In this document: positions 19,972 to 63,926 of the stretch, piece after piece | Position numbering within the stretch: the stretch's first letter is position 1 | Layout of the letters: each line of letters begins with the position of its first letter | Assembly (NCBI RefSeq): GCF_034522235.1 | Contig: NZ_JAXHLN010000003.1 | Span: forward strand, 2,046,001-2,110,000 | Length of the DNA: 64,000 nt | From: Thiohalophilus sp. | GTDB lineage: Bacteria > Pseudomonadota > Gammaproteobacteria > UBA6429 > Thiohalophilaceae | Reading direction: 5' to 3' | Notes under the pieces: generated by a model | What the model was told of the DNA's origin: nothing | The model's input: the letters and a program-made list of their open reading frames with translations, nothing else | The model's database searches: none | Position numbers and translations under genes: made by a program

Positions 19972-21310
19972 TCACTCAAGCCCCCGGGTCTTTCTCGGGG
20001 GCTTTTCTGAGACCGGAAAAGAGGTTCGGCTTTTTCGAACGGCCCTCGGTACCGAGGGCCATTTTCGTTCTGGCAGAATAAACGCCTTCACGTTGGCCCT
20101 CAGTGCGCGGAGCTTCTTTGGGATCGTCCCCGGTGAAGCCACGGCACACCAGAGAAACTCATCCTGAATATAGCGCATGGCCATCATAAAGCTGATCCGC
20201 AGTGGCGGCACCGCTGCTTCCTCGGCAATATGGCTGATTTCCAGACGCACCAGGTTGTAGGCCAGCAGGATCCCCCACAGCTCCTGACGGATCCCTCCGG
20301 GCTTTTGACTGCGCAGCAGCAACTCGCTACGCAGTTGCCGCCGCTTGAGCTCCCCGTAACCCTGTTCAATCTCCCAACGCTCCCAATAGATGCGCAACAG
20401 CTCATCGGCCGAATAGCGCTGAGGGTCTGTCAGGGAAGTGAGAAAACCGGTGATTTCCCCCCGTGGGGTTGGCATAGCTGACCATGCGGGCCTGCCAGGT
20501 GGCCGGCAGGTGAGGGTATTGCTGACGGGCCTGGGGGGAGATGGGCATCTCCACCAGACAGTCATACTCACTAAAGCGCTCAATCACTTCATAGCGCATC
20601 TTGCGTTTGACCGGTGTCAGCCAGTGGCTCTGCGGCTGGCTCTGTTGCCAGCAGAGCAGTAGTTCGGCGGAAAAATAGCACCGGTCAAACAGGGTCAGCG
20701 AGTAGGCCGGTGCCGCACTGACCAATTCCCGGGCGTAGTTGATTTCCTCCTGCGTGCAGGGGCCGAAGGCCGCTTCCCATACCAGGTGAGTGCGCAACGA
20801 CATCAGCGCTGTCAGGCGTACGCTGGGGAACGCGCTGATGTGGCCCTTGCGTGATTCGATAAAGCCGAAGGCCTCGCCATTTTCCGCTGAATCCGGCGTA
20901 TCGAATACAGTGCCATCCACGCTGAGCAGCTTCAGGCCGTGAAAGTCATCGTGCGCCTCTTGGCGGCTCCATGCCTCGGCGCTGCTGAGGAACAGGTAGC
21001 GCAGGGGCTCGGCAACCAAGCGCTCACGGGCCTGGGCCAGGGCGCTGGTCGCCACCACCGGGCGACCTTGACTGTCCGGCATCGCCAGATCCAGCTTGTC
21101 ACCGACGTCCTGAATTGAGCGGTCACGGTATAGACCGATCCCCAGTACCAGCCACATGACTTGCTCGGCGGGGAGACGGCGGCGAATACTGGCCATACCG
21201 GTGGCTTCAAGGGCCGTTTCTATCTACGCGCTGGGAATGTCGCGTTGAAAAGTGCTAAGTGACTCGGGTGACCATTGTGCTGTTTGGTCCAGCTCTTCGT
21301 TGAATGACAT
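19972..21310 (-). pseudogene. IS4-family transposase, disrupted
   Basis: The full-length gene would start MSFNEELDQTAQWSPE at 21310. A TAG at codon 26 (about 21233) interrupts the frame where the family usually has Trp. After it the same frame continues (IETALEATGMASIRRRLPAEQ). Near 20460 a one-base insertion in a C/G run (AN-PTGGNH instead of ANPRGEITGFLTSL) shifts the frame. The C-terminal part then carries the DDE-family Y-(2)-R-(3)-E-(6)-K signature (YWERWEIEQGYGELK). The two lesions make it inactive. Confidence 0.88.
19978..20007 (+). terminator. Hairpin with T-tract at the IS left end
   Basis: GCCCCCG/CGGGGGC stem (19980-20002) followed on the plus strand by TTTTC. Such terminators at IS ends block read-through into the element. 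Confidence 0.6.
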
Positions 21311-24384: not shown

Positions 24385-27213
24385 CTATTCATCCCCTGTC
24401 ATCGTTGCATTAACACCCTCCGCGGACGGCTTCTCTGGTGAACCGGACGCCAGTTCAAGTGTCTCAGCGAGTTGCTTGAGCTCATCGGCGTCAGACACCG
24501 TCCAGGCACCGGTACCCGGTTTGGACGGAACAGGTGGCATATTTTCGAGACTGCCGTCATGGTTACCGGCATCCGCCATCACCACTGCCCCGTCCTTCGG
24601 CGGCACTTCGACGGCAAGGTCGTGAAGCAGATACTTCCATTTATCCGTGCCCCAGTATTTTTCGCCTTTGATAGGCTCCATGAAGTACCAGTGACGCAAG
24701 TAAATGAGTTTGGCCTCGATATTGGCAGGCCCGGAGGCAGGCGCACGAAAACGATAGTGCGTGGTATCGGATTCCTTGTAGCCGATGCGTGTATCGTAGT
24801 AGACACGCTCGGCCGCGAATCCGCCCACGGGCCAAACATGCATCGCGCCGACGCTCGGCAGCACTGTCGCCATGGCAATCAGAACCAGTCCAACGAGCAT
24901 GCGTGAACGCCGCTCACCAAAGTTAAGGTTCATCCAGACGGGACCATCGCTCGTACGCTCCTGCTTGCCGCGCGTATCGATCCCCGCCAGCCGATACGGA
25001 ATACAATTGCCCATCACGGCGGTAAACAGGGGAATCAGTCCCAGCGCACCCCAGGCTGTTTGCGGTCCCCAGAACAGCAATGACAGCAGGGCAAGCCCGA
25101 TCAGCGCCCGCAGTATCCGGTCCGGAGTGCCCACATTAGGGGCAAACAGGCCCTTGATCCCCGCTCCCCGGGTATCCAGATTGCCCGCCAGGCGATAGGT
25201 CGGACACCAGCCAATCACCCCGCTTACAAGCGGAATCAGGCCAACCCAACCCCAGGGTGAGTCGATCATCATCAGGATCACGATGCCCACCACAATCCGC
25301 AGGAAGCGATCCAGCGCTCCGACATTGGGCGGGAAGAAACCGCCCTGCTCGCGGGTATCGATCTGCCCGATAAGGTGGTAGGTCGGACACCAACCGAGCA
25401 AACCGCTTACAAGCGGAATCAACCCGACCAGGTTCCAGGGGGCTGGCACAAAGATCAGGACGAGCGCTCCCACCAGCATACGCGCCAGCCGGTCGATCGT
25501 GCCGACGTTGACGCTGAAGAAACCCGGTTTCTGACTGGCGGAATCGTCTTTCTTCCCGTCACTGAACATGGCACGCAATGGCGACCAGCCGATCACGCCA
25601 ATCAGCAGGGGTATCAGGCCGATCCACAAATAACTGAACATCCAGCCCATCGGAAAAAACCCGGGCGTCACCCAGGAACCGTTATAAACCTTGCCAACCT
25701 GGCCAACATAGGGCATGTCCGGGAATGACTCACCGTGATATATTTCCCACCATTTGAAGAAACCGTATTTGCGGTAACCACCACCGACGTCGATAATGCG
25801 GTTGGCATGTGCGGCATCATTGGGATCGTCCCTTGCCGGATTCAGCGGCTCCAGTTTCTTGCCATTGGCATCCGTCGCCTCGATAAGCAACAACATCTGC
25901 CGGAAAGGGGGGCCACCCGGCATCTTGTGCGCGGCGCCAACGTTCGCGACTTCGGCTGCAACTGCGATTTCACCGTCGTCATTGCGTTGCGCACGAATCT
26001 TGAGATTGGAAGCACGACGCGGCATCTCCCCATCGAAATAACTGCCACGCCAGTGATGTCCGGCCAGTGTGTTGGGATCGCGTTCCACACCGATCGTAGC
26101 GGCCTTGTTCGTGCTCCAGGCACCTTGACCGCCGGTATACATATGGCAGGACTGGCATTGCTTGTCCGTCTTGCCGGCATCGAAGTTGGCTTTCCAGCGC
26201 GGATACTCATCCAGCGTCATCATGCTCGGCACCCCAACGCCTTCCAGGTCATCGGCACGTTCCATATGACACATGGCACAGAACTCGGACTTCTCGAAAA
26301 TCGGACTGTAGGCTGTCTTGTGGGCCGGACTGACCGCATCCTTATAAGGGCCAAACTTGACATCGCCGCGGCGGATAATCTCCATGCGGTCGATCTTGAC
26401 GGTTTCGAGCTTGCCAAACTGATCCTCGTGTATTCGTACGTCCTGAACCGAATGACAGACCTCGCAACTGATGCCTTCGCGGCCCTGCCCGATAGTCAGT
26501 TCCTCGAGCTTGTCGAAACGGTAGACCTGGAGTTGGCCATCGATAAAGACTTCGCCGGTCCCCGGATGGAGTTTGCGATGCGGCTCGGTTACCCCCTCCT
26601 TCCAGGTGGCGCCGCGGGCGTGGCAATTGACGCAAGTGCCGACATAATGATCCATGTCCATGGCGTGCATGCCCTGGGAAATGCCCAGCATGGGGGCAAA
26701 ATATTTCCAGCCAAAACCCAGCCCGTCGAATTTACCGTCCTCATCCACCCCCAGGTAGAACTGCTGTTTTTGCGGCAATTTCTCGTCGACGGCCCGCCCC
26801 ATGGTGGTATCTTGATATTGCTGGTAAATATCGGTGTGACAGGCGCCGCAAGACTGGTTGGATTGATATTGATAGGTGTGATCGTCAGGCGGCAGGACTT
26901 CCAGAGACAATGTGACCTCATCACCCCGGGACGCCATTACGGAGGCGATGCTGTATCCCTCATCCCAGGCTGTGATATGCCGGGTGGAAAGATCCGCATC
27001 GGCGGTATCGAGCTGAAAATGACCTTCAGCATCACTGCGGGCGCTGTGATCCGTGCCCTGTACCTTTACCACCGCACCGGCAACCGGCTTTCCGGTTGCC
27101 GCGTCAGTCACCTGACCGGTAACCATTGCCTCGGCAATGCCGGCAAACAGCACCGACATCGATAATAGCGTCAACCCGCTGATAGCGGTACGGACAAAAC
27201 CAGACCTGATCAT
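24385..27213 (-). CDS. Pentaheme cytochrome c with inserted YgaP-like membrane repeats
   Basis: 942 residues. Signal peptide (1-29) and a carboxypeptidase-regulatory-like beta domain (30-110) come first. Five CxxCH haem motifs follow: 122-126, 194-198, 250-254, 312-316 and 353-357. Next is a soluble region (380-520). Then comes a membrane block with three full repeats starting NVGT/NVGA (566-618, 628-681, 691-746; each with LIPLVSGLLGWCPTYHLIG-type end) plus half-repeats at 523-548 and 763-790. The repeats resemble the YgaP transmembrane domain (DUF2892). A final extracytoplasmic domain starts ERVYYDTRIGYKESDTTHY (about 802-942). Periplasmic electron transfer anchored in the inner membrane is the likely role; substrate unknown. 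Start chosen at the signal peptide with GGGGGG upstream. Confidence 0.85.
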   Translation of the reverse strand: MIRSGFVRTAISGLTLLSMSVLFAGIAEAMVTGQVTDAATGKPVAGAVVKVQGTDHSARSDAEGHFQLDTADADLSTRHITAWDEGYSIASVMASRGDEVTLSLEVLPPDDHTYQYQSNQSCGACHTDIYQQYQDTTMGRAVDEKLPQKQQFYLGVDEDGKFDGLGFGWKYFAPMLGISQGMHAMDMDHYVGTCVNCHARGATWKEGVTEPHRKLHPGTGEVFIDGQLQVYRFDKLEELTIGQGREGISCEVCHSVQDVRIHEDQFGKLETVKIDRMEIIRRGDVKFGPYKDAVSPAHKTAYSPIFEKSEFCAMCHMERADDLEGVGVPSMMTLDEYPRWKANFDAGKTDKQCQSCHMYTGGQGAWSTNKAATIGVERDPNTLAGHHWRGSYFDGEMPRRASNLKIRAQRNDDGEIAVAAEVANVGAAHKMPGGPPFRQMLLLIEATDANGKKLEPLNPARDDPNDAAHANRIIDVGGGYRKYGFFKWWEIYHGESFPDMPYVGQVGKVYNGSWVTPGFFPMGWMFSYLWIGLIPLLIGVIGWSPLRAMFSDGKKDDSASQKPGFFSVNVGTIDRLARMLVGALVLIFVPAPWNLVGLIPLVSGLLGWCPTYHLIGQIDTREQGGFFPPNVGALDRFLRIVVGIVILMMIDSPWGWVGLIPLVSGVIGWCPTYRLAGNLDTRGAGIKGLFAPNVGTPDRILRALIGLALLSLLFWGPQTAWGALGLIPLFTAVMGNCIPYRLAGIDTRGKQERTSDGPVWMNLNFGERRSRMLVGLVLIAMATVLPSVGAMHVWPVGGFAAERVYYDTRIGYKESDTTHYRFRAPASGPANIEAKLIYLRHWYFMEPIKGEKYWGTDKWKYLLHDLAVEVPPKDGAVVMADAGNHDGSLENMPPVPSKPGTGAWTVSDADELKQLAETLELASGSPEKPSAEGVNATMTGDE

Positions 27214-27361
27214 GCATCCCCCCTGGAACTTTGTGTAACAGACCACACATGGCCGTATTGGCCACGACCTATTCTGCGGGGAATGGTAATAGGGCGCTGC
27301 ACCACGCGATATGCTGACGCGCAGCAAAGAGAAAGTTTATTTATTGATTGTATTCAGATAG

Positions 27362-27498
27362 TTACAGAAGATACACGGAATAAATATGATTGACGTCATA
27401 TTGCCTGGTATCACATTTGCCGGGGGCCCCGGGAAATATGGATATGACGCCCCCGGCGTGTAATCACGCCTTCGGCCTCAAGAGCCGCCAGCGTCCGA
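27362..27498. repeat. 137-base repeat, copy 2, in the cytochrome upstream region
   Basis: Same unit as 28825-28961, differing at few positions (for example GGTATC for GGCATC). It places the detached 3' end of the Crp/Fnr gene between the diguanylate cyclase and the cytochrome gene. Just beyond it lies the palindrome ATGATTATAATCAT (27503-27516). Apart from these, 27214-27562 holds only the cytochrome leader; no gene is seen. Confidence 0.9.
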
Positions 27499-28717: not shown

Positions 28718-28824
28718 TTGCCTGCACCGTCGGGAGAACCGCAGGATCGCGGAAGCGCCTGCGGGCAATGTGTCGGGATACTGAGTAATCCTGCGCCTCA
28801 ACACAGGTAGTGAAGGCCAGATAA

Positions 28825-28961
28825 TTACAGAAGATACACGGAATAAATATGATTGACGTCATATTGCCTGGCATCACATTTGCCGGGGGCCCCGGGAAAT
28901 ATGGATATGACGCCCCCGGCGTGTAATCACGCCTTCGGCCTCGAGAGCCGCCAGCGTCCGA
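28825..28961. repeat. 137-base repeat, original copy (3' end of the Crp/Fnr gene)
   Basis: Source copy of the three-copy repeat: the last 29 codons of the Crp/Fnr gene, including the end of its DNA-binding domain, plus 49 bases downstream. The GC arms GCCGGGGGC/GCCCCCGGC are within the coding part. Confidence 0.9.
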
Positions 28962-29796: not shown

Positions 29797-30741
29797 TCAG
29801 TTTTCAGTAAGGGAGACCACATTTTTGTTACGGGCGGGATCCTTGGTCCAGGCATGCATGGAGCCGTCGTACACCGCGGCGTTCTTGTTACCCAGGATCT
29901 CGGACATGACAAACCAGTGACCGCTACTCAGGTGACCACTGTCGCAGTAGGTGATGGTCGGCTTATCGATGGAAATTCCTTTGGCCTGCGCCACCGCCTT
30001 CAGGGTTTTGGCATCGTGGAACGGAGCGGACTTGGCACCGTTTTTCGGGTTGAGCACCAGCATGTAAGGCTGCAGATTGATGGCCCCCTTGATATGACCT
30101 TTAGCGGAAACATAGGGCCGTCGACCCAGGCCCAGATACTGGGCTTCGTCACGACCATCGATAAGCTGGGTGTCGCCACGGGCAAGCGCCTCGGCCACGT
30201 CCTTTGAGGTCGCCAGCAGTTCACGACGCTCGGCACTGGCAGTGAAATTCCCTTTGCCGGGGTTTCGGGCGTTGGGTACCAGCGGACGTTTTTCCTTGGT
30301 CCATTTGGCAGCGCCGCCGTCAAGCAGGGCCATGTTGTCGTGACCGTAGTATTTGAGCGTCCAGTAGAGACGGGTGCCCCAGGTGACGTCGCCAGCACCG
30401 GTGCCGGGGGTGACGATAACCACGGCGCTGTTGTTGTTGACGCCGCGTTCCTGCATCAATGTCTCGAAGGCCTGTTTGGACGGAAGCAGCTTGTCATGGG
30501 TTTCTCCATCCTTGTCCACCTGGTTGTTGGTACGAACCTGCTTCCATGGCACCTGCACCGAGCCGGGCACAAATTTCACGCCCTCGTGGCTCTTGCGCAC
30601 ATCCAGGATGACAACATCTTGCAGATTGTTCTGCAGCCAGTCGGTGCTGACCAGCGGGCCGGGCACTTTGGCGGCATGGGCTGCCGAAACGACGCCGACC
30701 AGCAGCGTCGCCACGGATAACAGTTTCTTGATGGTATTCAT
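29797..30741 (-). CDS. Periplasmic two-domain rhodanese (sulfurtransferase)
   Basis: 314 residues with a signal peptide (SVATLLVGVVSAAHA-AK) and two rhodanese domains. The second carries the catalytic loop YCDSGHLSSG with the active Cys. The first lacks Cys at the matching place (VTPGTGAGDVTWG), as in SseA-type enzymes. It would move sulfane sulfur between thiosulfate or persulfides and acceptors in the periplasm. Start at ATG 30741 with GAGGAG, 60 bases downstream of the start point expected from a consensus sigma-54 promoter. It diverges from the YeeE-TusA operon. Confidence 0.85.
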   Translation of the reverse strand: MNTIKKLLSVATLLVGVVSAAHAAKVPGPLVSTDWLQNNLQDVVILDVRKSHEGVKFVPGSVQVPWKQVRTNNQVDKDGETHDKLLPSKQAFETLMQERGVNNNSAVVIVTPGTGAGDVTWGTRLYWTLKYYGHDNMALLDGGAAKWTKEKRPLVPNARNPGKGNFTASAERRELLATSKDVAEALARGDTQLIDGRDEAQYLGLGRRPYVSAKGHIKGAINLQPYMLVLNPKNGAKSAPFHDAKTLKAVAQAKGISIDKPTITYCDSGHLSSGHWFVMSEILGNKNAAVYDGSMHAWTKDPARNKNVVSLTEN

Positions 30742-30812
30742 AGCGATGTTCTCCTCGGTCATTTTGGTTGTCAGCAGGTTGCGCAAGACGCGCGACCTGC
30801 CCGCTACCAATC

Positions 30813-30827
30813 GCAAGCATCGTGCCA
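30813..30827 (-). promoter_or_regulatory. Sigma-54 promoter of the rhodanese gene
   Basis: Minus strand TGGCACGATGCTTGC, a full match to the -24/-12 consensus TGGCAC-N5-TTGC. It lies 72 bases upstream of the rhodanese ATG. Confidence 0.8.
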
Positions 30828-30943
30828 CAGTACCGGTGACTGACGTTTTCGTTCCGCAAGCCCTGTGGCGCAAGGCGTTGGCTGTGGGACAGACAAAACA
30901 GGAAACAGGGAAAACACACCACGAACCGTTGCAAAGTACCAGA

Positions 30944-30973
30944 GTCTCGCAATTTGCAAGGCTTTTGCGAGAC
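30944..30973. promoter_or_regulatory. Inverted repeat, candidate activator site in the sulfur divergon
   Basis: GTCTCGCAA and its exact complement TTGCGAGAC separated by 12 bases. It lies between the two opposing sigma-54 promoters, 116 and 78 bases from them, the range used by sigma-54 enhancer-binding proteins. Confidence 0.65.
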
Positions 30974-31051
30974 GAATAGGCACCGGTCAGAATGGCCGCG
31001 AATGCATACAGCACACTGTCTGGCAGGGAGTTTTTATGTGCAGGGAAAGAT

Positions 31052-31066
31052 TGGCATCAGCTTTGC
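31052..31066 (+). promoter_or_regulatory. Sigma-54 promoter of the YeeE-TusA operon
   Basis: TGGCATCAGCTTTGC matches the -24/-12 consensus at all but one position. Transcription would start near 31078, about 93 bases before the first gene. Confidence 0.75.
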
Positions 31067-31071
31067 TACAG

Positions 31072-31110
31072 GTTGTCGAGAAACAAGTTGTCGAGTAAAG
31101 AGGTTGTCGA
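31072..31110 (+). repeat. Three GTTGTCGA direct repeats in the operon leader
   Basis: GTTGTCGA occurs at 31072, 31087 and 31103, spaced 15 and 16 bases. The copies lie at and after the predicted start point, so they may be a repressor-binding or RNA-level element. Confidence 0.45.
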
Positions 31111-31170
31111 CAAAGTCATCCGATCCCGGAACACAGAATTCCGGACAAGCATAAAAACGACGGAGCCGCC

Positions 31171-31662
31171 ATGGAACTGTTCAAGAAGACTATCGATCCT
31201 GTTACCGCGCTGATCCTGATCGGCATCGCCAATGTATTCCTGTTCCTCGTTGTCGGAGCCTGGACCGTGGGCGGCGGTGAAACCATGATGACCGGCCTCA
31301 TGGCGCAATCCGTGCTGGGCGAGGAATTGAATCGCGTACCGTTCTGGGAGCTGGTATTCCAGCCCTTCATCGGTGACTGGCGCATTTATCTCAGCCTCGG
31401 CATGTTAAGCGGCGCCTTTGTCGCCGCGATGTTATCGAAAGAATTCTATCTGCGACTGCCGCGCAGTCTGTCGGAGTGGCTGATGATCACCGTCGGCGGC
31501 CTGATGATGGGCATCGGCATCCGCCTGGCCTTCGTCTGCAATGTCAGCACTTTCTTCGGGCTGTCCAACCAGATGAATCTTGGCGGTTATCTGGCCATTT
31601 CCGGCATTATCGCCGGCACCTGGGTCGGCTCCCTGATCTACAAACGCGTCCTGGAGGGTTGA
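31171..31662 (+). CDS. YeeE/YedE-family sulfur transporter, first subunit
   Basis: 163 residues, about four membrane helices, COG2391/YeeE-YedE family. It carries the family Cys signature on a pore helix (GIRLAFVCNVSTFFGL). Relatives such as TsuA import thiosulfate by relay through Cys residues; split two-gene versions (PmpA/PmpB type) are also known. It starts the operon and is followed after one base by the second subunit. Confidence 0.85.
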   Translation: MELFKKTIDPVTALILIGIANVFLFLVVGAWTVGGGETMMTGLMAQSVLGEELNRVPFWELVFQPFIGDWRIYLSLGMLSGAFVAAMLSKEFYLRLPRSLSEWLMITVGGLMMGIGIRLAFVCNVSTFFGLSNQMNLGGYLAISGIIAGTWVGSLIYKRVLEG

Positions 31663-31663
31663 G

Positions 31664-32260
31664 ATGAGTATTGTTGGCCAATGTTTGATTGGTTTTATTT
31701 TCGGCTGCCTCGTCGGCGTGCTGGTACAGCGTTCGCGCTTCTGCAATGTGGCCGCGCTGCGCGATGCGATGTTGTTTAAAAGTTATCGCAACACCAAGGC
31801 GCTGCTTGCCGGCATGATCGTGATGACTCTGGGTTTCACGCTGTTCATGAGTTTCGGCGACGGCAAGCCGTTGCGTTTCGATGTCGGGCTCAACACCCTG
31901 ATCGGTCTGTTCATTTTCGGTATCGGCATGGTGCTGGCCGGCGCCTGTACCGTCTCCACCTGGGTCAAGGCCGGCGAAGGCAATATCGGTGCGGTATGGG
32001 CGTTGCTGTTCACCTTCATCGGCATGTTCCTGTTTTCCCTGGTGTGGTCCTTCAGCTACTGGCCGCCCGCGCCCGCCACCATGACCGGCGAGCCCAACCT
32101 GGCCGGCCTGCAACTCGGCCTGTCCAATGCGGCAACCCTGCAGGAGAAACTGGGGATTCCGGCCATCGTCTTCGGCATTATCCAGGCGGTCGTCCTCTAT
32201 GCCATTTACCGCGCCGTGCTGCGCAAGGAACGCCAGGTGGCCGAAGAAAGCGGCGGCTAA
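31664..32260 (+). CDS. YeeE/YedE-family sulfur transporter, second subunit
   Basis: 198 residues, about five to six membrane helices. Conserved Cys lie in VQRSRFCNVAALRD and in VLAGACTVSTWVKAGEG, the motifs that line the thiosulfate path in TsuA. Together with the preceding gene it would form a complete channel delivering sulfur to TusA, encoded next. Confidence 0.87.
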   Translation: MSIVGQCLIGFIFGCLVGVLVQRSRFCNVAALRDAMLFKSYRNTKALLAGMIVMTLGFTLFMSFGDGKPLRFDVGLNTLIGLFIFGIGMVLAGACTVSTWVKAGEGNIGAVWALLFTFIGMFLFSLVWSFSYWPPAPATMTGEPNLAGLQLGLSNAATLQEKLGIPAIVFGIIQAVVLYAIYRAVLRKERQVAEESGG

Positions 32261-32341
32261 GGTATTAAACGCCTTGCCGCGGGAAGACATGTATTACCTC
32301 TAACCGCCCGGATACCCGGGCCCTGATTATGGAGAACGCAA

Positions 32342-32647
32342 ATGGGACTTTTCAGCAAGAAAAACGAAACAGCCGCCACCGAGGCCGGCAGCAGCGTCAC
32401 CCTGGAGGACGGCAGCACCGTTGAGGTGAGCCGCGTGGTCGACGCGCTCGGCGACTCCTGTCCACGTCCGCAGCTCAAGACCAAGAAAGCGCTGAAGGAA
32501 TCAGATCCGGGGATGGTAATCGAAGTACGCATCGACAACCCCACCTCGATGGCGGCAATCCCGCCGATGATGCCGGAGGTAAAGAGCACCCATCTGGGCA
32601 CGGTGAAAGACGGCCGCTACTGGCGTGTCATCGTGCGCAAGAATTGA
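32342..32647 (+). CDS. tusA: TusA-family sulfur carrier
   Basis: 101 residues. Core motif DALGDSCPRPQLKTKKAL contains the CPxP cysteine that carries persulfide. An N-terminal extension of about 25 residues (GLFSKKNETAATEAGSS) is longer than usual. It sits right after two YeeE/YedE genes, a frequent pairing in which TusA accepts imported sulfur on the cytoplasmic side. Confidence 0.88.
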   Translation: MGLFSKKNETAATEAGSSVTLEDGSTVEVSRVVDALGDSCPRPQLKTKKALKESDPGMVIEVRIDNPTSMAAIPPMMPEVKSTHLGTVKDGRYWRVIVRKN

Positions 32648-32657
32648 GGGCGACACC

Positions 32658-32894
32658 ATGACTTCCGGCCAATTACAACTTTCGGTGTTTTCGATCCTGG
32701 TGGGCGCGGTCACGATCGGAACGTTGATCTTTGCGTTTACCGCCACCCCGAATTATCTGAACCAGTCGCGTCACGGCGTGCCGCATTTGATGCCCCAGGT
32801 GAAACATCCGCAAACCGGTGAGCCGCTTGAGATCGACATGCTGATCAGGCATTACAAGGGCGAGCTGGACAACCAATCGAGTATTTATTACTAG
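32658..32894 (+). CDS. 78-residue single-pass membrane protein
   Basis: One N-terminal membrane helix (FSILVGAVTIGTLIFAF) followed by a 50-residue polar tail (HLMPQVKHPQTGEPLEIDML) that may lie in the periplasm. The ATG at 32658 is 10 bases after the TusA stop. I do not recognise the family. Position in a tight sulfur operon suggests a part of a membrane complex with the two following small proteins and the cytochrome. Confidence 0.6.
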   Translation: MTSGQLQLSVFSILVGAVTIGTLIFAFTATPNYLNQSRHGVPHLMPQVKHPQTGEPLEIDMLIRHYKGELDNQSSIYY

Positions 32895-32907
32895 ACGAGG
32901 CACAACC

Positions 32908-33003
32908 ATGGAAGCTTTCGATCTCAAAACGCTGATCCACATCGGCATGTTCTTCCTGGCGTTCTATCTGATGTACGTCAGTTTTACCAAAGATCCGTTC
33001 TGA
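32908..33003 (+). CDS. 31-residue membrane peptide
   Basis: MEAFDLKTLIHIGMFFLAFY then LMYVSFTKDPF: almost entirely one membrane helix. GACGAGG stands 12 bases before the ATG. It lies 13 bases after the previous gene and 10 before the next. Such peptides often stabilise respiratory complexes (CydX, CcoQ and similar), which is the analogy I would draw. Confidence 0.6.
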   Translation: MEAFDLKTLIHIGMFFLAFYLMYVSFTKDPF

Positions 33004-33013
33004 GGAGGCGCCG

Positions 33014-33286
33014 ATGAGCAACTCACAAATTCTGCTGTTCTGCGGCATCTCGCTCGCCATTGCTCTCGGCCTGGCAGCCCTGCTGTTTCCACAGGCAACC
33101 ATGACCGATACGCAGCGTGCTCGCCTGGATACCCCCCAGCCGGCCGAGTCGCTGGGGGAAATCGATCTGGGCGGTTACTTTGGCAAGGTCAAGGTCACCG
33201 AACTGGTGGACTATTACATCAGCAATCCGCCCGACGCCGACACCGCCGCCAGGGTAATCGAAGAAGACCGTTTCGGCGGTTGCTGA
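33014..33286 (+). CDS. 90-residue membrane-anchored protein ending in Gly-Gly-Cys
   Basis: N-terminal membrane helix (ILLFCGISLAIALGLAALLF), then a polar domain, ending RVIEEDRFGGC with Cys as the last residue. A Cys on a short glycine arm at the extreme C-terminus recalls sulfur-carrying DsrC/TusE-type swinging arms, although the fold is otherwise different. Its stop overlaps the next ATG (TGATG). GAGGAGG precedes the start. Sulfur carrier function is an inference. Confidence 0.6.
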   Translation: MSNSQILLFCGISLAIALGLAALLFPQATMTDTQRARLDTPQPAESLGEIDLGGYFGKVKVTELVDYYISNPPDADTAARVIEEDRFGGC

Positions 33287-34242
33287 TGGCGGGCTTGTCA
33301 CGGCTCGCGCTCGGATTGATCCTGCTGGCGCCCGGCAGCGGCATTGCGGCGGAGTTTCGCTATTCATCCGCGTTACCCGATGAGGGACAGGTGATCGACA
33401 CGCGCGCGCAGGAACAGTGTCAAACGATGAGCCTGGCCGGCGCGCGTTGCCTGCCGGCCACCGACCTGCTCGGTCCGCACCGGCGCCTGCCAAGCTTCCG
33501 CGACATCCTGTGGGTGTTCGGGACCGCCGGGTTGCGCGGCGATGAGACCCTCATCGTGGCGGGTTCCGATCCCCGGGAACGGGATTTTGTCGCCGCCCTG
33601 CTGTATCTGGCCGGCCAGCGCGAAATCGTGGTGCTCACCGAGCCGCTGCCACGTCTGCTCGCGGCCGGCGCCGCCGCGGCGCCGGGTGAGCCGCGCGGCA
33701 TGATCCGCGATCCCATCTACCGGGCAAGCCTGCGGGAACACCTTATCGTTTTGCGCCGCGAGTTGTGGTCCGAACTGCAGGACGCGGCGCCCCCTGCCCT
33801 GTTCGACGGCCGCGGCGATGCGGAATATCGCGGCGAGCGGGTCCGCGCGCAGCGCGGCGGTCGACTGCCCGGCGCGATCCTCCTGCCCGCCGGCGAACTG
33901 CGGGCGTCGTTGACCGCCGAGCCGCGTCCGACGCCGGCCGGGCTTGTCGGCTACGCGCATGATCCGCTGGAATCGCTGGCCTATTTCACCCTGCTGCGGG
34001 CCGGCGCCGGCTTCGAGGCGCGCGTCTATATCCAGGGCTGGCGTGACTGGGCCGCCCGCGGCGAACTGCCGGTCGACCACGAAACCCTGCCCGAACCGGT
34101 CAGTCCCCGTGCGATGCCCACATCAGCGGCAACTGCCGGACCGGGACTGATTCAACAGCTCTTGCCGGTGATCGCCCTGATCATTGCATTACTCACCCTG
34201 TTTATTGTTATTAGCCGAAGGAGCCACCGATGGACCTCTTGA
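33286..34242 (+). CDS. Rhodanese-like protein without catalytic Cys, C-terminally membrane anchored
   Basis: 318 residues: signal peptide (LGLILLAPGSGIAA-EF), two rhodanese-like domains (VIDTRAQEQCQTM...; LFDGRGDAEYRGERV...) and a C-terminal membrane helix (LLPVIALIIALLTLFIVI). Neither active-site loop has Cys (IVAGSDPRERDF; GYAHDPLESLAYF), so it probably binds rather than transfers sulfur. The stop of the previous gene overlaps the ATG at 33286. The 3' end overlaps the next gene by 13 bases. Confidence 0.7.
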   Translation: MAGLSRLALGLILLAPGSGIAAEFRYSSALPDEGQVIDTRAQEQCQTMSLAGARCLPATDLLGPHRRLPSFRDILWVFGTAGLRGDETLIVAGSDPRERDFVAALLYLAGQREIVVLTEPLPRLLAAGAAAAPGEPRGMIRDPIYRASLREHLIVLRRELWSELQDAAPPALFDGRGDAEYRGERVRAQRGGRLPGAILLPAGELRASLTAEPRPTPAGLVGYAHDPLESLAYFTLLRAGAGFEARVYIQGWRDWAARGELPVDHETLPEPVSPRAMPTSAATAGPGLIQQLLPVIALIIALLTLFIVISRRSHRWTS

Positions 34243-34520
34243 TCGACGTATCCACCCCCGACGCGGCCCCCGTACTGGTGCCGCTGCTGCAGGCGCTGCA
34301 CCGGCGCGGCAGCGAGTGGGCAATTTTTTTCACCAACGACGGCGTCAAGGCGCTCGATGACACGCAACTGGCCGGCCTGATGCACCTGGCCGAACAGGCC
34401 GTGGCCTGCGAGTTTTCCTGGGAGCGTTACAGGGGCGATGCCGAATGCCCCGTCACCCTCGGCAGCCAGACCAATCACAGCATGCTGGCCGCCTCGGCCG
34501 CTCGCATCATCGGCCTGTAG
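34230..34520 (+). CDS. DsrE-like small protein with two Cys
   Basis: 96 residues, alpha/beta, resembling the DsrE/TusD-type fold (MDLLIDVSTPDAAPVLVPLL; WAIFFTNDGVK). Cys lie in AVACEFSWERYRGDAECPV, a place where DsrE-type sulfur carriers have a reactive Cys. It is shorter than typical DsrE (about 110-130). First of three consecutive small soluble proteins that recall the DsrEFH/TusBCD trio. Confidence 0.6.
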   Translation: MDLLIDVSTPDAAPVLVPLLQALHRRGSEWAIFFTNDGVKALDDTQLAGLMHLAEQAVACEFSWERYRGDAECPVTLGSQTNHSMLAASAARIIGL

Positions 34521-34532
34521 GAGACGCATCTT

Positions 34533-34811
34533 ATGAGTGAAGGAAAGAAAGCATTACTGTTACTGGCCCGCCGCGATCACACCGAAGCGATGCGCGTCGC
34601 CGCCGGTCTGACCATCTTCGGCCACGCGGTGCGCCTGGTGTTCATGACCGGCCCGGTCGCCGACACACCGGAGAACGCCGAAGAAGCGGAAATGCTGGAA
34701 CTGTCCGATATTACCCCGGAAACCACCGTCGCCGACCAGGAACTGCCGCATCTGGAGCCCGGCGCCCTGGCGCTGGCCATGGTGGAAGCCGACGCCGTCA
34801 TCAGCCTGTGA
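34533..34811 (+). CDS. DsrE/DsrF-like small protein lacking Cys
   Basis: 92 residues: beta strand (KALLLLARRD), helix (EAMRVAAGLTIFGHAV), strand (RLVFMTG), then an acidic linker. This is the DsrE/F order. No Cys at all, so a structural partner of the preceding protein is likely. Start with GTAGGAGACGCATCTT upstream. Confidence 0.55.
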   Translation: MSEGKKALLLLARRDHTEAMRVAAGLTIFGHAVRLVFMTGPVADTPENAEEAEMLELSDITPETTVADQELPHLEPGALALAMVEADAVISL

Positions 34812-34821
34812 GGTCTTACCC

Positions 34822-35007
34822 ATGAATATCGCCATACTCGATAGCGGACTGTTTCCCGATCGCACCACTATGGACGAGGCAGTCAATTACTTCGAACCCC
34901 ATTACAACTTCTATCGCTGGAACCTGACCGACCCGACGCTGACGCGCGATGACTGGGATCAGATCGTCGACGAGCTGTTGAGCGCCGATCGGGCGATCGT
35001 GATCTGA
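34822..35007 (+). CDS. 61-residue acidic protein, third member of the DsrE-like trio
   Basis: MNIAILDSGLFPDRTTMDEA... ending LLSADRAIVI. It is soluble, acidic and lacks Cys. Place and size recall DsrH/TusB but homology cannot be claimed. It is tightly spaced between the second DsrE-like gene and a cytochrome gene. Confidence 0.5.
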   Translation: MNIAILDSGLFPDRTTMDEAVNYFEPHYNFYRWNLTDPTLTRDDWDQIVDELLSADRAIVI

Positions 35008-35011
35008 GCCG

Positions 35012-35662
35012 ATGTGGTGCCGTTGTCTGCTGGCCTGCCTGCTGCTGATCGGCCTTGCGCCGGCCCACGCCGTGGGGGAACACGGCCGGCGCTTCGCCGC
35101 GGAGATCGCCGTGATGCGGGGCGATGTGGAACAGTTGCGGGCGGCCGATACCCGGCCGTTGCACCGCCGCGGTCTGCGGGCGCGACTCGAAAGCAGCCTG
35201 AGCCTGCTGGGGATGCTGGCCCGCCAGCAGGCGCAGGAACGCGGCGTGGCACCGGCGCGGTTGCTGGCCCGGGTCGCCACGCTGAGAGACGCTTACCGCC
35301 AGGACAACCTGGAACGACTGCGGGATAACCTGCGCACGCTGATGCGGGACTATCCCCTGTCCCTGCCCGAATGGGACGATCCCGCGATCACCCCGGCCCG
35401 CCTCGCCGCCGGTCGCAAGCTGTACGAGACCCTGTGTCTGGCCTGTCATCATCACCCGTATCAGGATCGGGAAAACCCCGCCTACAACCTGTTCCGGCAG
35501 GCCCGCAACGAGCCGCGCGAAATCTTCGCCGCGCGTCTGTATGGCGGCGTGCGTGGCGTGCCGGCCACGTCGCTGGACAACCCGTTATCCATTGAAGAGA
35601 TGACCGCGCTGCTGGTCTGGCTGCTGGAAGCACCGGAGGATCAGATCGGTGATGCGGATTGA
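35012..35662 (+). CDS. Periplasmic cytochrome c
   Basis: 216 residues: signal peptide (CLLACLLLIGLAPAHA), a helical N-terminal domain of about 120 residues (RRGLRARLESSLSLLGML...), then a class I haem domain with CLACHHH and a likely Met ligand in SIEEMTAL. It begins four bases after the previous stop. As the last gene of the operon it would accept electrons from sulfur oxidation in the periplasm. Confidence 0.8.
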   Translation: MWCRCLLACLLLIGLAPAHAVGEHGRRFAAEIAVMRGDVEQLRAADTRPLHRRGLRARLESSLSLLGMLARQQAQERGVAPARLLARVATLRDAYRQDNLERLRDNLRTLMRDYPLSLPEWDDPAITPARLAAGRKLYETLCLACHHHPYQDRENPAYNLFRQARNEPREIFAARLYGGVRGVPATSLDNPLSIEEMTALLVWLLEAPEDQIGDAD

Positions 35663-47129: not shown

Positions 47130-47140
47130 GATAACGCCCC

Positions 47141-47899: not shown

Positions 47900-47919
47900 C
47901 GTCATATCTCCTTAACTTG

Positions 47920-50415: not shown

Positions 50416-50493
50416 GACGCTTGCTCTCTCCTCTGGTTGGTTTTATTGGCACAGGTATCGCCCGCTGTGCCGGTTTGTACCGGGTGCCGGCGT

Positions 50494-51768: not shown

Positions 51769-51792
51769 TGATGCAACCTGCCCAGACCGTTC

Positions 51793-51807
51793 ACAAAAAC
51801 CATGCCA
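51793..51807 (-). promoter_or_regulatory. Sigma-54 promoter of the arx operon
   Basis: Minus strand TGGCATGGTTTTTGT fits TGGCAC-N5-TTGC with two changes (the -24 GG is kept; the -12 element reads TTGT). It would start transcription about 13 bases before the arxB' ATG. The cluster encodes its own sigma-54 activator, ArxR. Confidence 0.6.
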
Positions 51808-51860
51808 TACAAAAGTTATCTTTTATTTCAATAACTTAATCGTCTGGCAAAGCGGCGAAG

Positions 51861-51995: not shown

Positions 51996-52031
51996 CATCG
52001 ATTCACCGGGACTGGGGAGGGACAAAAACGG

Positions 52032-54343: not shown

Positions 54344-54345
54344 AG

Positions 54346-55644: not shown

Positions 55645-55731
55645 GCGTCGACACTTCGTCTATCATCCGTAAAAACCCGCCGGTCCGCCAACCCGACGTG
55701 ATGCAACAAGACCGTACATCCGGCTCACGCA

Positions 55732-60271: not shown

Positions 60272-61615
60272 CTAATCCCGTAGCCGTCGGTGCAAGGTGG
60301 AAGGGTCGATCCCCAGCCGCCGGGCGGCTTCGGTTTTGTTCCCCTGGCAACGCCTGAGCATGTGCTCCATCCAGTAACGCTCGACTTCGAGCAGTGTGGC
60401 ATCCGGTGGAATCGGCCAGGGATCAGACGGACTGGCGCTGGAACCGGCTATCAACTCCCGCGGCAAATGATGGCGCTCGATATGTTCACCGTTGGCCAGG
60501 ACCACGGCACGCTGAACAATATTCTCCAGTTCCCGGACATTCCCCGGCCAGTCATAACCCTGCAGGGCGTCGAGCGTCCCGGCGGAAAAACCGCGCACGT
60601 CGCGCGCCAGCTCACGCGCGTAGCGCAGCATGAAACGCTCGGCCAGCGGCGCGATATCCTCGCGCCGCTCGCGCAGGGGGGGCAATTCAATGGGATACAC
60701 ATTCAGCCGATAGAAGAGATCCCGCCGAAAACGGCCCTCTTCCACCAGTTTGGCCAGATCCTCATTGGCCGCGACAACCAGCCGGACATCCACGTCGACC
60801 GGCCGCTCCCCGCCCACCCGCAACAGGGTGCGCTCCTGGACGAATTGCAGCAGGCGGGCCTGCACTTCGGGACGGGTACTGTTGATCTCATCCAGCAGCA
60901 GGGTGCCGCCGTCGGCCAGTTCCAGCAGGCCGCGTTTACGCGACGTGGCACCGGTAAATGCGCCTTTTTCATGACCGAACAGTTCATTCTCGATCAGGGT
61001 TTCCGGCACCGCCGCGCAATTGAGCGCCAGATACGGGCCCTCGCAACGTGGACTGGCATCGTGAATCCAGCGGGCGAGCACGCCCTTGCCGGTGCCGGTC
61101 TCGCCGCTCAGCAGCACGGGCAGTTCGAGCGGCGCCACCTGTTCGGCCAGCTCCAGCATGCGTTGCGCGGCGCGACTCTCGATGACCGGCGCGGGTTCCT
61201 CGTCCAGCTGTGCCAGCCGGGCATCCAGCTGCTCGATACGCCGTTCGTGGGTCAGCAGGTTTCGCACTCGCTCCAGCAGGCCGCGCACCTGTTCGGTATC
61301 AAACGGTTTGGTGATCAGATCAAACAAACCATTACGAAATCCCTCAACAGCATCCTGAACCGTGGCATAGCCGGTGATCATCACCACCGGCATGCCGGGA
61401 TTCAATCCACGCGCCTCGTTCAGTAACTGCAGGCCGTCGGGTTGTGGCAGGCGCAAATCGGTAAACAACACATCGGGCAGATCACGGTGCAAACGCTGTC
61501 GCGCCTCGCTGCCGGTATACAAGACAGTGACACGAAACCCGGCTTCACTGGCCAGTTCCTCCAGCAAGTCGGCCATATCCGGATCATCTTCGGCAATAAG
61601 AATATCGAATTTCAT
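60272..61615 (-). CDS. NtrC-type sigma-54 response regulator (AioR-like)
   Basis: 447 residues: receiver (acceptor Asp in VLFTDLRLPQPDG), AAA+ domain (GETGTGKGVLARWIHD; GAFTGATSRK; LLDEINST) and Fis-type helix-turn-helix (KTEAARRLGIDPSTLHRRL). All motifs for sigma-54 activation are intact. It is encoded convergently with aioA and overlaps the kinase gene by four bases. Place suggests AioR, but control of the sigma-54 sulfur locus is equally possible. Confidence 0.85.
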   Translation of the reverse strand: MKFDILIAEDDPDMADLLEELASEAGFRVTVLYTGSEARQRLHRDLPDVLFTDLRLPQPDGLQLLNEARGLNPGMPVVMITGYATVQDAVEGFRNGLFDLITKPFDTEQVRGLLERVRNLLTHERRIEQLDARLAQLDEEPAPVIESRAAQRMLELAEQVAPLELPVLLSGETGTGKGVLARWIHDASPRCEGPYLALNCAAVPETLIENELFGHEKGAFTGATSRKRGLLELADGGTLLLDEINSTRPEVQARLLQFVQERTLLRVGGERPVDVDVRLVVAANEDLAKLVEEGRFRRDLFYRLNVYPIELPPLRERREDIAPLAERFMLRYARELARDVRGFSAGTLDALQGYDWPGNVRELENIVQRAVVLANGEHIERHHLPRELIAGSSASPSDPWPIPPDATLLEVERYWMEHMLRRCQGNKTEAARRLGIDPSTLHRRLRD

Positions 61616-63021
61616 ACCTGATGTGCCTTCTCGCTAATTTGTGCTTCGGCGGCAGGCAATTGTAAACGAAACAGCGTCTGGCCGGCGGCATCCTCGACCA
61701 GTTCAATATGCCCGTTCATGGATTGCAGCAGGGTCCGGCACAGATACAGACCGAGGCCGGTACCGGTGCCGGCCTCCTTGGTGGTAAAAAAGGGCTCGAA
61801 TATTTTTTTACGGTGCGCGTTGTCAATGCCCGAACCGTTATCCTGCACCAGTAGTACCCCTTCGTCTTCGCTACACTGCAGTGTGAGCTGCAATGCCGTG
61901 GCACCGGCCTGGGCCGCATTGTTAAATAAATTGAAAAGAATCTGCTCCAGCCCGCTGACATCCCCATAGACCCAGCATGGCCCCCAGCTGTTGATCTCGA
62001 CGGAGGTCACCCCGTGATCGCGGATCACCGGGCGTATCAAAGTGACGGTGGAACGCACCAGGTTATCCAGATCCAGCCGCTGAATCACCGTCCTGGGTGC
62101 CCGGGCGGAGGCCAGCAGATCGCCCACGATTTGCGAGCATTTACGCGCCTGACGCTCGATGACCTGGAAACGATGCGCGCCGCGTTCATCCGGAATTTCC
62201 CGGCTGCCCTGCTGGGCATAGCCGATGATATTACCCAGCGGGGTATTCAACCCGTGGGCCAGCCCGGCCGCCATCTGCCCGATAGTGGCCAGCCGCTGTT
62301 CCTGGCACAAGCGCGCCGTGGCGCTGCGGGCCAGGCGGTTGGCCTGTTCCAGTTCGTCAATATGACGGTGAATGTCATTTTGCAGGCGCGAAAACATTTC
62401 CGCCAGTTGCTCGATCTCCTCGGGCACATTTTGTTTCAACGGCATGGCCAAGGGTGCATCGGTGTACATTGGATTGACACTGTTGGCCAGGGCGCGGACC
62501 GGTTCGACCAGCCGCGCACGCAGCAGCTGGCGTAGCAGGTAAAACAGAATCACCGTCAGCACCAGCAAGCCGACAAGACCGGCCAGGGTCAGCAGCCCGA
62601 CAGTCTGATCGACTGCCCGGCGATCATAGGCCACCAGCACTTCACCAATATCGCGCCCGGCCAGGTTGACGGGTTCGGCAATCGTGATAACCGAACTATC
62701 CCCCGCCCGCTCACGGTTGCCTGCCTCGGCCAGCAACTCACCGTCCTCGCGTTGCACCCGGACATAAACCATGTCCCGCCCGGCACCGAGATCCTTGACA
62801 TAACGTTCGAGGGTACCGTAATCGTAGGTCAGCACCGAATCCAGGGAGACGATCGCCAGTTGCCGGGCCAGGGCGCCGGCCTTGTCACGCAAGGCATCGT
62901 CCAGTACGCGGCTGATGCTTTGTTGCATCACCACGCCCAGAATCAGGGCCAGAACCACCAGTGCCCCGCCCGCATAGAGGCTGATCAGCCCGGACAAAGT
63001 GATGCGGCGTTGCCTTACCAC
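61612..63021 (-). CDS. Sensor histidine kinase (AioS-like)
   Basis: 469 residues from GTG 63021, chosen because AGGAGG stands 7 bases upstream; a TTG seven codons earlier is unlikely. Two membrane helices (about 12-34 and 150-175) around a periplasmic domain, HAMP-like linker, acceptor His in AAGLAHGLNTPLGNII and ATPase motifs (NLFNNAAQAG; GTGTGLGLYLC). Its start overlaps the end of the binding-protein gene. Confidence 0.85.
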   Translation of the reverse strand: MVRQRRITLSGLISLYAGGALVVLALILGVVMQQSISRVLDDALRDKAGALARQLAIVSLDSVLTYDYGTLERYVKDLGAGRDMVYVRVQREDGELLAEAGNRERAGDSSVITIAEPVNLAGRDIGEVLVAYDRRAVDQTVGLLTLAGLVGLLVLTVILFYLLRQLLRARLVEPVRALANSVNPMYTDAPLAMPLKQNVPEEIEQLAEMFSRLQNDIHRHIDELEQANRLARSATARLCQEQRLATIGQMAAGLAHGLNTPLGNIIGYAQQGSREIPDERGAHRFQVIERQARKCSQIVGDLLASARAPRTVIQRLDLDNLVRSTVTLIRPVIRDHGVTSVEINSWGPCWVYGDVSGLEQILFNLFNNAAQAGATALQLTLQCSEDEGVLLVQDNGSGIDNAHRKKIFEPFFTTKEAGTGTGLGLYLCRTLLQSMNGHIELVEDAAGQTLFRLQLPAAEAQISEKAHQV

Positions 63022-63926
63022 GGCAAGGCCTCCTGTGGGCAACCGTCTTCAACGGTACGCACCACCGCGCGCGCCAGGGAAAAGTCGCTGTCCTCGACAG
63101 GAATAAACCGGACCGGCTGACCGAAGGGCTGAAAATCCTTTGCAATATCCTCGCTTGCCGAAATCAGTATTTCCCGCAGGCGCTTTGCCAGTTCTGTATC
63201 AAAATCCGGCGCGGCGGCAATCACATGGGCGGGCAGGCTCGGGGACTCTTCCACGATACGCAACCCCCGATCCAGGTAACGTTCGGCAATCGCCTTGCGC
63301 AATCCGCCCATGTCAAAATCGCCATGCAACACCGCCAGGGCAACCCGCTCATGGCGACGCAAAAAGGCATAATCCTTCAGATCACTGAGCTGTATACCGG
63401 CTCGGGCCAGCATCACGCGTGGCACATAGTGACTGCTGAATGAATGGGGCGATCCAAAAGCCACGGTATGATGGCGCACATCATCCACCGCGCGGATCTC
63501 ACTGCCGGAGCGAACGACAAGCACGCTGTGGTAGCCGGTTTTGTCTTCACCGGCCTCGGCCGCTATCAGCTGAAGATTGCGCTCGGCGCCCTTCAGATAG
63601 TGATCGTGTGCCCGCAGATAGGGCGTGGGACCGATATAGGCCAGATCCGCCTCGTTGCGGGCAAGCCGACGGATCTGATCCCGGTAGGACAGCGCCACCT
63701 CGATTATTACCTGGCGACCCGTCTGCTGTTGAAGATAATCGGCCAGCGGTTGAAAACGACTGATGATGCGGCTCGGAGTATCATAGGGATGCACGATCAA
63801 GACCAGGGCCGACGGATCAGCCTGGGAAGAAACCTCCCCGACATTCACCGGCGGGGCTGTCTCGTCGCCACAACCGATCAGGACGGTTGCCAGCGATATC
63901 ACTGTCAGGCGTTTAATCCACCGCAT
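63015..63926 (-). CDS. PhnD-type binding lipoprotein (AioX-like) without internal Cys
   Basis: 303 residues. Lipoprotein signal with lipobox LIGC; PhnD-type fold (LVLIVHPYDTPSRIISRFQP; EADLAYIGPTPYLRAHDHY; TVAFGSPHSFSSHYVP). Apart from the lipidated Cys and one near the C-terminus (EDGCPQ) there is no Cys, so it lacks the Cys expected of an arsenite sensor and present in ArxX. It forms a trio with the kinase and sigma-54 regulator. The ligand may be an oxyanion other than arsenite. Confidence 0.75.
   Translation of the reverse strand: MRWIKRLTVISLATVLIGCGDETAPPVNVGEVSSQADPSALVLIVHPYDTPSRIISRFQPLADYLQQQTGRQVIIEVALSYRDQIRRLARNEADLAYIGPTPYLRAHDHYLKGAERNLQLIAAEAGEDKTGYHSVLVVRSGSEIRAVDDVRHHTVAFGSPHSFSSHYVPRVMLARAGIQLSDLKDYAFLRRHERVALAVLHGDFDMGGLRKAIAERYLDRGLRIVEESPSLPAHVIAAAPDFDTELAKRLREILISASEDIAKDFQPFGQPVRFIPVEDSDFSLARAVVRTVEDGCPQEALPW

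Follow-up and report, generated by a model that had tools for sequence, protein, structure and literature searches.

How sulfane sulfur in the periplasm reaches the oxidation machinery of the cytoplasm has been called poorly understood (PMC11582611). The question is raised by a block of twelve genes at positions 29797-35662 of the 64,000-nucleotide stretch of Thiohalophilus sp. DNA analysed here (the window), in which a secreted rhodanese (rhdP) diverges from eleven co-oriented genes: a transporter in two chains (yeeA, yeeB), the sulfur carrier TusA, three miniproteins (m78, m31, m90), an anchored rhodanese (rhdM), three small proteins (dsrE1, dsrE2, s61) and a cytochrome c (cyt). Apart from tusA, these names were coined in this analysis. 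All twelve reading frames were found where an earlier interpretation made from the letters alone (the sequence-only reading) had placed them, and its picture of a rhodanese diverging from an eleven-gene operon was borne out; two boundaries moved, as RhdP in fact runs from 30741 to 29797 (314 amino acids, ATG start) and m78 starts at 32658. On balance, we slightly favour the view that the block encodes an inducible sulfur relay at the inner membrane of chemolithotrophic sulfur oxidisers. The operon would then supply a parts list for a periplasm-to-cytoplasm sulfane sulfur route, often together with its own regulator, and with it come three miniprotein families for which neither Pfam nor NCBIfam gave a convincing match.

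In the following, genomes are numbered G and loci L; G000 is the window's own genome, G001 is of the same genus and G015 of the same family. The first relative found, in G015, has the twelve genes in one operon, with an m31 likewise of exactly 31 residues. An alignment scan of species genomes with yeeA gave 23 loci (one being the G015 locus again), nearly all from metagenome-assembled genomes, with Thiobacillus, Sulfuriferula multivorans, Sedimenticola and Sulfuricellaceae among the hosts; a named strain, S. multivorans TTN (L033), carries the operon. When the loci were compared with one profile per gene (n = 30 after removal of the duplicates L022, L045 and L051), 22 had the complete set in identical order, seven were cut by contig ends (L013, L017, L019, L027, L034, L046 and L049), and L050 lacked rhdP only. 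L025, L026 and L029 are mutually close and are not independent loci; L118, outside the 30, also has all twelve genes. Synteny of the miniproteins with the YeeE-type genes and tusA, which the sequence-only reading had proposed as a check, is thus kept, and other genomes do hold these genes together. Profiles of m90 found a match in 10 of 369 genomes of the class, the window's own and G015 included, and a later version in 2 of 398 genomes of the phylum, again counting the window's own.

The arrangement of the window is not the usual one. Of the 22 complete loci, 20 have rhdP inside the operon, in the same orientation and flanked by s61 and cyt; a divergent rhdP occurs only in the window and in G160. 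Therefore the term divergon, under which the locus was originally described, fits these two genomes and not the system as a whole. Table 1 lists the coordinates of the genes and control elements.

Table 1. Genes and putative control elements of the sulfur operon, and the candidate regulator set, in window coordinates
Feature	Position	Strand	Remarks
RhdP, secreted tandem rhodanese	29797..30741	-	314 aa, ATG start; catalytic loop CDSGH (Cys257); Pfam Rhodanese 94.9 bits
-24/-12 (sigma-54 type) element of rhdP	30813..30827	-	TGGCACGATGCTTGC
Inverted repeat midway between both elements, candidate activator-binding site	30924..30964		recurs in G160
-24/-12 (sigma-54 type) element of yeeA operon	31052..31066	+	TGGCATCAGCTTTGC
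YeeA, C-terminal half of YeeE/TsuA-type transporter	31171..31662	+	Sulf_transp profile 171-310; Cys123 = TsuA Cys293
YeeB, N-terminal half of YeeE/TsuA-type transporter	31664..32260	+	Sulf_transp profile 1-159; Cys27, Cys95 = TsuA Cys22, Cys91
TusA sulfur carrier, N-terminal extension, CPRP motif (Cys40)	32342..32647	+	PF01206 56.2 bits, cut-off 28.6
m78 miniprotein, one transmembrane segment, soluble part with GVPYxxPxVxxP motif	32658..32894	+	23 aligned sequences, window included
m31, 31-residue single-pass membrane protein	32908..33003	+	25 sequences, window included
m90, membrane-anchored miniprotein, GGC end	33014..33286	+	25 sequences; AlphaFold2 model
RhdM, anchored rhodanese without catalytic Cys	33286..34242	+	signal peptide, rhodanese domains, C-terminal membrane anchor; Cys pair C45/C55
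DsrE1, DsrE fold, Cys60	34230..34520	+	AlphaFold2 model; 25 sequences
DsrE2, putative DsrF-like partner without conserved Cys	34533..34811	+	25 sequences, 20 invariant columns
S61, 61 residues, DsrH position	34822..35007	+	25 sequences
Mono-haem cytochrome c, CLACH	35012..35662	+	CXXCH in 22/22 uncut sequences
PhnD-like binding protein, histidine kinase, sigma-54 response regulator	60272..63926	-	beside aioBA

Pfam matches above cut-off were obtained for the rhodaneses (RhdP and RhdM), Sulf_transp (YeeA and YeeB) and TusA, with the cytochrome c scoring slightly under its cut-off (24.2 against 27 bits); the window's m78, m90, DsrE1 and DsrE2 gave no significant match in Pfam or NCBIfam. Part of the set is nevertheless familiar from the YTD cluster, since renamed yeeE-tusA-dsrEFH type II (PMC13047784, PMC13293266) and known from Desulfobacterota, Nitrospirota and cable bacteria (PMC13047784, PMC12998232, PMC13293266). 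Both have, in the same order, a YeeE-type transporter, TusA, a DsrE with a catalytic cysteine, a second small protein, in the operon only putatively DsrF-like, and a third small protein. The operon differs in that its transporter comes in two chains and in having three miniproteins, two rhodaneses, a cytochrome c and sigma-54-type control; furthermore, the operon is not alone in G000, which also has a separate YTD-like cluster and a dsrAB pair with DsrE-family genes behind it. That cluster (L107, G000:C3:1103000-1121000, 7096-10177) holds two tusA genes, a 487-residue YeeE and genes at the DsrE, DsrF and DsrH positions, the single-chain transporters of YTD-like clusters measuring 484-496 amino acids. 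Against the clusters of G000 and G271, dsrE1, dsrE2 and tusA are 28-41% identical, well above shuffled sequences; against L107 the values are 30, 33 and 33%, and s61 is not alignable. DsrE2 matches the second protein (Chp1) of the two clusters at 33 and 41% (z = 10.8 and 21.5). S61 resembles the third (Chp2) in position and size (61 against 62-64 amino acids), with no sequence match to it in either cluster (z = 1.3 and -0.2). By these comparisons the core of the operon is related to the YTD cluster in an expanded form, the new parts being m78, m31, m90, RhdM, RhdP and the cytochrome c. Since YeeE, TusA and DsrE of the core, with probable counterparts of Chp1 and Chp2, correspond to YTD (PMC13047784, PMC13293266), the former statement that no described pathway has this set was only partly right; it stands for the full twelve genes, of which we found no description in the open-access literature searched.

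The fold of DsrE1 agrees with this kinship. Its AlphaFold2 model (predicted local distance difference test score 97.7) superposes on DsrE (2hy5_A; Z 11.8, root-mean-square deviation 2.0 over 96 residues) and on TusD (2d1p_A; Z 11.6), and its Cys60 is invariant (25/25). The Pfam DsrE family matches only 4 of the 25 members, weakly (best E 0.0044), so the fold assignment rests on the model. Profiles of DsrE1, DsrE2 and S61 gave chance-level matches only in a sequence-only search of solved structures, and profile comparison with type I DsrEFH was weak for all three, that of DsrE2 with DsrF being full-length but weak. Among the 25 S61 members Pfam returned only DUF4646, in one, which we treat as chance (the best E across the m31 and S61 scans was 0.0019). 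Collectively, DsrE1, DsrE2 and S61 most likely form a DsrEFH-type trio. The type II DsrEFH proteins act as sulfur transferase in vitro, with TusA the likely donor and DsrC the acceptor (PMC13293266).

Relatives of the trio also occur apart from the miniproteins. We found dsrE1 in 27 of the 369 class genomes, 13 of them at more than 100 bits and 14 at 24-69 bits; ten of the former 13 also carry m90. In G081, G298 and G393 the stretches examined, a short contig in the case of G298, hold dsrE1-dsrE2-s61 but no recognised miniproteins. A more distant locus in G301 looks intermediate, having a split transporter, two miniproteins with cysteine tails and a single anchored rhodanese that keeps the catalytic cysteine. 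A plausible history, read from these sequences, would lead from YTD to a split transporter with Cys-tailed miniproteins and on to duplication of the rhodanese with loss of the cysteine in one copy.

What would such a transporter carry? The best sequence matches of YeeA and YeeB are solved TsuA chains, alone or with TsuB (YeeB aligned to 6leo), and aligned to these chains the two halves together retain all three TsuA cysteines. Across loci, Cys123 of YeeA is kept in 27 of 28 sequences (the 28th, L034, ends at a contig end before that position), Cys27 and Cys95 of YeeB in 26 of 26, with a further cysteine, C7, in 23 of 26, and the CPRP cysteine of TusA in 25 of 25. TsuA imports thiosulfate in cooperation with a TusA-like partner, and its cysteines have been described (PMC11582611). 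The operon thus shares with TsuA/TsuB (YeeE/YeeD) both transporter halves, the three cysteines and a TusA-like partner, and differs in having two chains, near-constant extra parts, and scores far under the NCBIfam TsuA equivalog cut-offs (53.5 and 65.3 against 400 bits; 35.4 and 61.4 against 645). Splitting has a precedent in PmpA/PmpB, where one chain is likewise the N-terminal and the other the C-terminal half (PMC11582611). PmpA and PmpB have about 130 amino acids and one conserved cysteine each (PMC11582611), whereas YeeB has 198 with two cysteines of the TsuA set and YeeA 163 with one, and only YeeA/YeeB belong to an operon with TusA and DsrE genes. The conserved cysteines and the TsuA matches would also suit plain thiosulfate uptake, in which YeeA and YeeB import whole thiosulfate, TusA splits it like TsuB and the miniproteins merely stabilise the split transporter. 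We regard this as unlikely, in view of the low scores, of a rhodanese and a cytochrome c that are near-constant and needless for uptake alone, and of the invariant C-terminal cysteine of m90 that it leaves unexplained. Sulfane sulfur transfer through the membrane, which the sequence-only reading had named as an alternative to that of thiosulfate, is supported as the likely task.

Of the three miniproteins, m90 is the most original part of the operon. Family models gave little: among 25 members of m31 Pfam returned AA_permease_C in two only, weakly, and NCBIfam nothing; the 23 members of m78 have no Pfam match and scattered weak NCBIfam ones (best E 0.0029; TcpD_dom in 3 of 23 and two others in one each, with LapA_dom at E 0.013 for the window protein). 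All of these we treat as chance. For m90 there was no Pfam match and no NCBIfam match up to E 0.01 among 25 members, and none in NCBIfam up to E = 1 for the window protein. The 31-residue frame is nonetheless a real gene, as it is found at 25 loci, the window included, with lengths of 28-31 amino acids (one called start gives 25), and has a low nonsynonymous rate against G160. Between the window and G160 the nonsynonymous and synonymous rates are 0.014 and 0.42 for m31, 0.18 and 1.06 for m90, and 0.29 and 0.64 for m78, the least constrained of the three; changes fall mostly in third codon positions. Together with m78, m31 probably provides subunits of the transporter assembly.

The final residue of m90 is cysteine in 25 of 25 sequences, preceded by two glycines in 24 and forming AGC in L032. 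SoxY is a carrier that works as a swinging arm. Like SoxY of SoxYZ, which has a GGCGG tail, m90 carries at its C-terminus a conserved cysteine after two glycines; unlike SoxY, it is membrane-anchored, has 90 residues and ends exactly at the cysteine. It does not match the curated SoxY family model, and its profile gave chance-level matches only in the sequence-only search of solved structures. The AlphaFold2 model shows a membrane helix, a small domain and a loose tail, with middling confidence overall (predicted template modelling score 0.41). By analogy, the tail suggests that m90 may be a tethered, SoxY-like carrier arm that gives sulfane sulfur to the transporter. A bolder version, which we put forward tentatively as possible but not probable, is that m90 founds a new class of sulfur carrier: its cysteine would swing to dock a periplasmic donor to the split YeeE channel, of which m31 and m78 would be subunits, the operon would be the missing entry route for Sox-bound sulfane sulfur in oxidisers that lack SoxCD, and the electrons would pass to the operon's own cytochrome c.

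At the G301 locus the m78-like and m90-like proteins both end in KAISAPTGC. Their genes (L109, 9684-9977 and 10103-10423, minus strand) encode an identical SAKAISAPTGC tail, as if the cysteine tail had been copied between genes.

The two rhodaneses of the operon form an unequal pair, one without the catalytic cysteine standing with a second, active-type copy. In RhdP this cysteine is kept in all 24 sequences compared. ExtH, the rhodanese of a selenite/tellurite operon, was dropped as an identity for RhdP at 81.4 bits against a cut-off of 200. The RhdM alignment has 25 rows, of which L012, L015 and L021 proved to be mis-picked RhdP and were dropped; the catalytic cysteine is absent from all 22 true rows, and a pair, C45/C55, is conserved in 22 of the 25, the other three being the mis-picked ones. 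The description of the anchored rhodanese as Cys-less consequently holds for the catalytic residue and fails for the pair. In the window RhdM has a hydrophobic segment from residue 292; no C-terminal segment was seen in 6 of the 25 rows, which may include mis-picked ones. By a crude scan the tail is positive on average across the set, and therefore the domains should face the periplasm.

Next we examined the metabolic setting. In 8 of 10 operon genomes dsrA exceeds its cut-off, with a partial match in G243 and none in G297 (counting dsrA of any type, oxidative or not), and eight of these ten, all except G242 and G091, have SoxY. SoxC over cut-off is missing from 9 of 11 operon genomes, the exceptions being G015 and G091. 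DsrE-family genes lie beside dsrA in operon genomes, with DsrEFH and DsrC order in L054, L056, L059 and L061, and in G000 two of them stand behind dsrAB. Without SoxC, Sox-bound sulfur must enter the cell, and the gene setting fits an import route for it.

The same setting bears on the idea that sulfane sulfur is exported or dismuted at the membrane, in sulfur disproportionation or another reverse flow, as was first proposed for YTD. The operon shares its core with YTD, a proposed marker of disproportionation (PMC8780430, PMC12998232), and the role of YTD itself in this process has been judged poorly supported (PMC13293266). The high frequency of dsrA in the operon genomes, with DsrE-family genes adjoining, speaks against this explanation. 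So do the named hosts: Thiobacillus, Sulfuriferula and Sedimenticola are sulfur oxidisers. We consider such reverse flow clearly improbable.

Under the preferred import relay, for which we infer both the direction of flow and the donor, RhdP would process a periplasmic donor, either thiosulfate or sulfane sulfur carried on SoxYZ or polysulfide. The sulfane sulfur would pass to the C-terminal cysteine of the membrane-tethered m90 arm and from there to YeeA and YeeB. On the cytoplasmic side TusA would take it up and hand it to Cys60 of DsrE1 in a DsrEFH-like complex (DsrE1-DsrE2-S61), which in turn would deliver it to DsrC and reverse Dsr, or to another cytoplasmic oxidation system. Electrons from periplasmic thiol oxidation would go to the cytochrome c, perhaps through the cysteine pair of RhdM. 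Transcription would depend on sigma-54 RNA polymerase, with a PhnD-kinase-activator set sensing a sulfur oxyanion.

Control of the operon was assessed from the intergenic region, using the -24/-12 consensus and scan weights for it. Two outward-facing elements of the sigma-54 type lie where the sequence-only reading had seen promoters, and the single inverted repeat that it had noted between them is also there. The element facing yeeA is the only exact -24/-12 match in the window, and when its upstream region was randomised 200 times no version scored as high. In 20 of 28 loci yeeA is preceded by an element that at most 4 of 200 randomised versions reach; none was found in the other eight (L012, L015, L016, L017, L021, L028, L032 and L034). 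Comparison of the window with G160 shows three conserved blocks in the intergenic region: the rhdP element, which lies within 18 identical bases; the inverted repeat; and the yeeA element, with 13 of 15 bases kept. The full inverted-repeat pattern has no second copy in the window at up to 3 mismatches. Its half-site pattern has no exact match elsewhere in G000, and in G160 only the homologous site matches it exactly; at 3 mismatches there are a few further matches, one of them in the G160 control. The bare -24/-12 motif is not rare, having 7 matches in the window at up to one mismatch against 5.97 expected, and is not commoner than in shuffles; it is position and conservation that put the promoter elements above chance. 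On these predicted elements, sigma-54-type control of the operon is supported.

Between the yeeA promoter and the start codon (31070-31114) the window also has three near-perfect 14-base direct repeats of the AGGTTGTCGAGAAA type, which are absent from the G160 leader.

In 16 of 28 loci the operon is adjoined by a sigma-54 regulator belonging to a single lineage. The -24/-12 element is present in 15 of these 16 against 5 of the 12 others (hand count; Fisher p = 0.004), several of the 12 being short contigs on which a regulator may be out of sight. The window's genome has no close relative of this usual regulator (best 43%). It has, at 60272-63926, a set that matches the one beside the G160 operon (regulator 61%, kinase 49%, binding protein 49%), and G160 is without a full-length aioA. 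For these reasons the 60272-63926 set is likely, judging from the similarity, to drive the sulfur operon although it lies beside aioBA. Another set, at 52032-55644, is a less likely controller, given the match of the former to the G160 operon-side set.

A regulator set flanking the block so often would also be expected if the transporter were a signalling importer of the kind proposed for SoxT1B, bringing in a little sulfur to inform the regulator and not for oxidation; YeeE-like proteins can signal in Hyphomicrobium denitrificans (PMC11582611). A signal path, however, would not need a full DsrEFH-like trio, a cytochrome c and two rhodaneses, and the regulators have a periplasmic binding protein of their own. 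We find this explanation very improbable.

Several observations weigh against an import relay. G001 has dsrA and SoxY and neither m90 nor dsrE1, so such a pathway can do without the relay. As G242 and G091 are without SoxY and G297 is without dsrA, neither donor nor acceptor is fixed, and G015 and G091 do possess SoxC. G000 already has dsrAB, DsrE-family genes and a YTD-like cluster, a redundancy that calls for explanation. Neither profile nor pairwise comparison gave S61 a sequence link to DsrH. The topology of m90 is uncertain, its charge bias being slight (net +0.72 against +0.40), and positive-inside counts settle the topology of neither m90 nor m78.

Might the operon, given its surroundings, serve arsenic metabolism? 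The block adjoins arsM, an ArrA/ArxA-family enzyme and aioBA, and its likely regulator set lies beside aioBA, which would agree with sulfur handling for thioarsenate under Aio regulators. Full-length aioA is, however, found only in G000 among 11 genomes (G160, G189 and G297 have partial matches, 28-36%), and in G160 the same regulator set adjoins the sulfur operon. Boxes of a GTTAC-N6-GTAAC-like form, which we take to be of the AioR type, cluster at the arx and porin-aio promoters, with none between the two promoters of the block. We therefore rejected arsenic as a general function, and hold an arsenic-linked role to be highly improbable. AioXSR and ArxXSR sets likewise comprise a PhnD-like binding protein, a kinase and a sigma-54 regulator, but the operon-side sets of L010, L024 and L026 form a separate lineage, with regulators 40-44% and kinases 24-32% identical to the two window sets.

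Alongside arsM and ars genes, the arsenic island itself (45993-60148) contains an ArrA/ArxA-family molybdoenzyme (428.9 bits to ArrA, under the cut-off of 1600) with FeS and NrfD-type genes, and an AioBA that exceeds its cut-offs (190.7 and 1252 bits). Two kinds of arsenite oxidase thus probably stand side by side. The boxes lie at 51860-51996, in the arx intergenic region, and at 55731-55746, upstream of the porin-aio genes; the one at 51981-51996 is perfect and three more have one mismatch. Over the whole window such matches number 19 against 21.77 expected and are not commoner than in shuffles. These boxes are possible sites of the regulator encoded at 54346-55644.

Upstream of the sulfur operon, a 980-residue frame at 24385-27327 combines a multihaem cytochrome region (several CXXCH) with repeated small membrane segments. 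A 144-base direct repeat, 98% identical (27355-27498 and 28818-28961), flanks a presumably GGDEF-type gene beside a Crp/FtrB-like regulator, one copy holding the end of the regulator gene. At 19972-21196, two frames that overlap in different phases look like one broken gene, presumably for a transposase.

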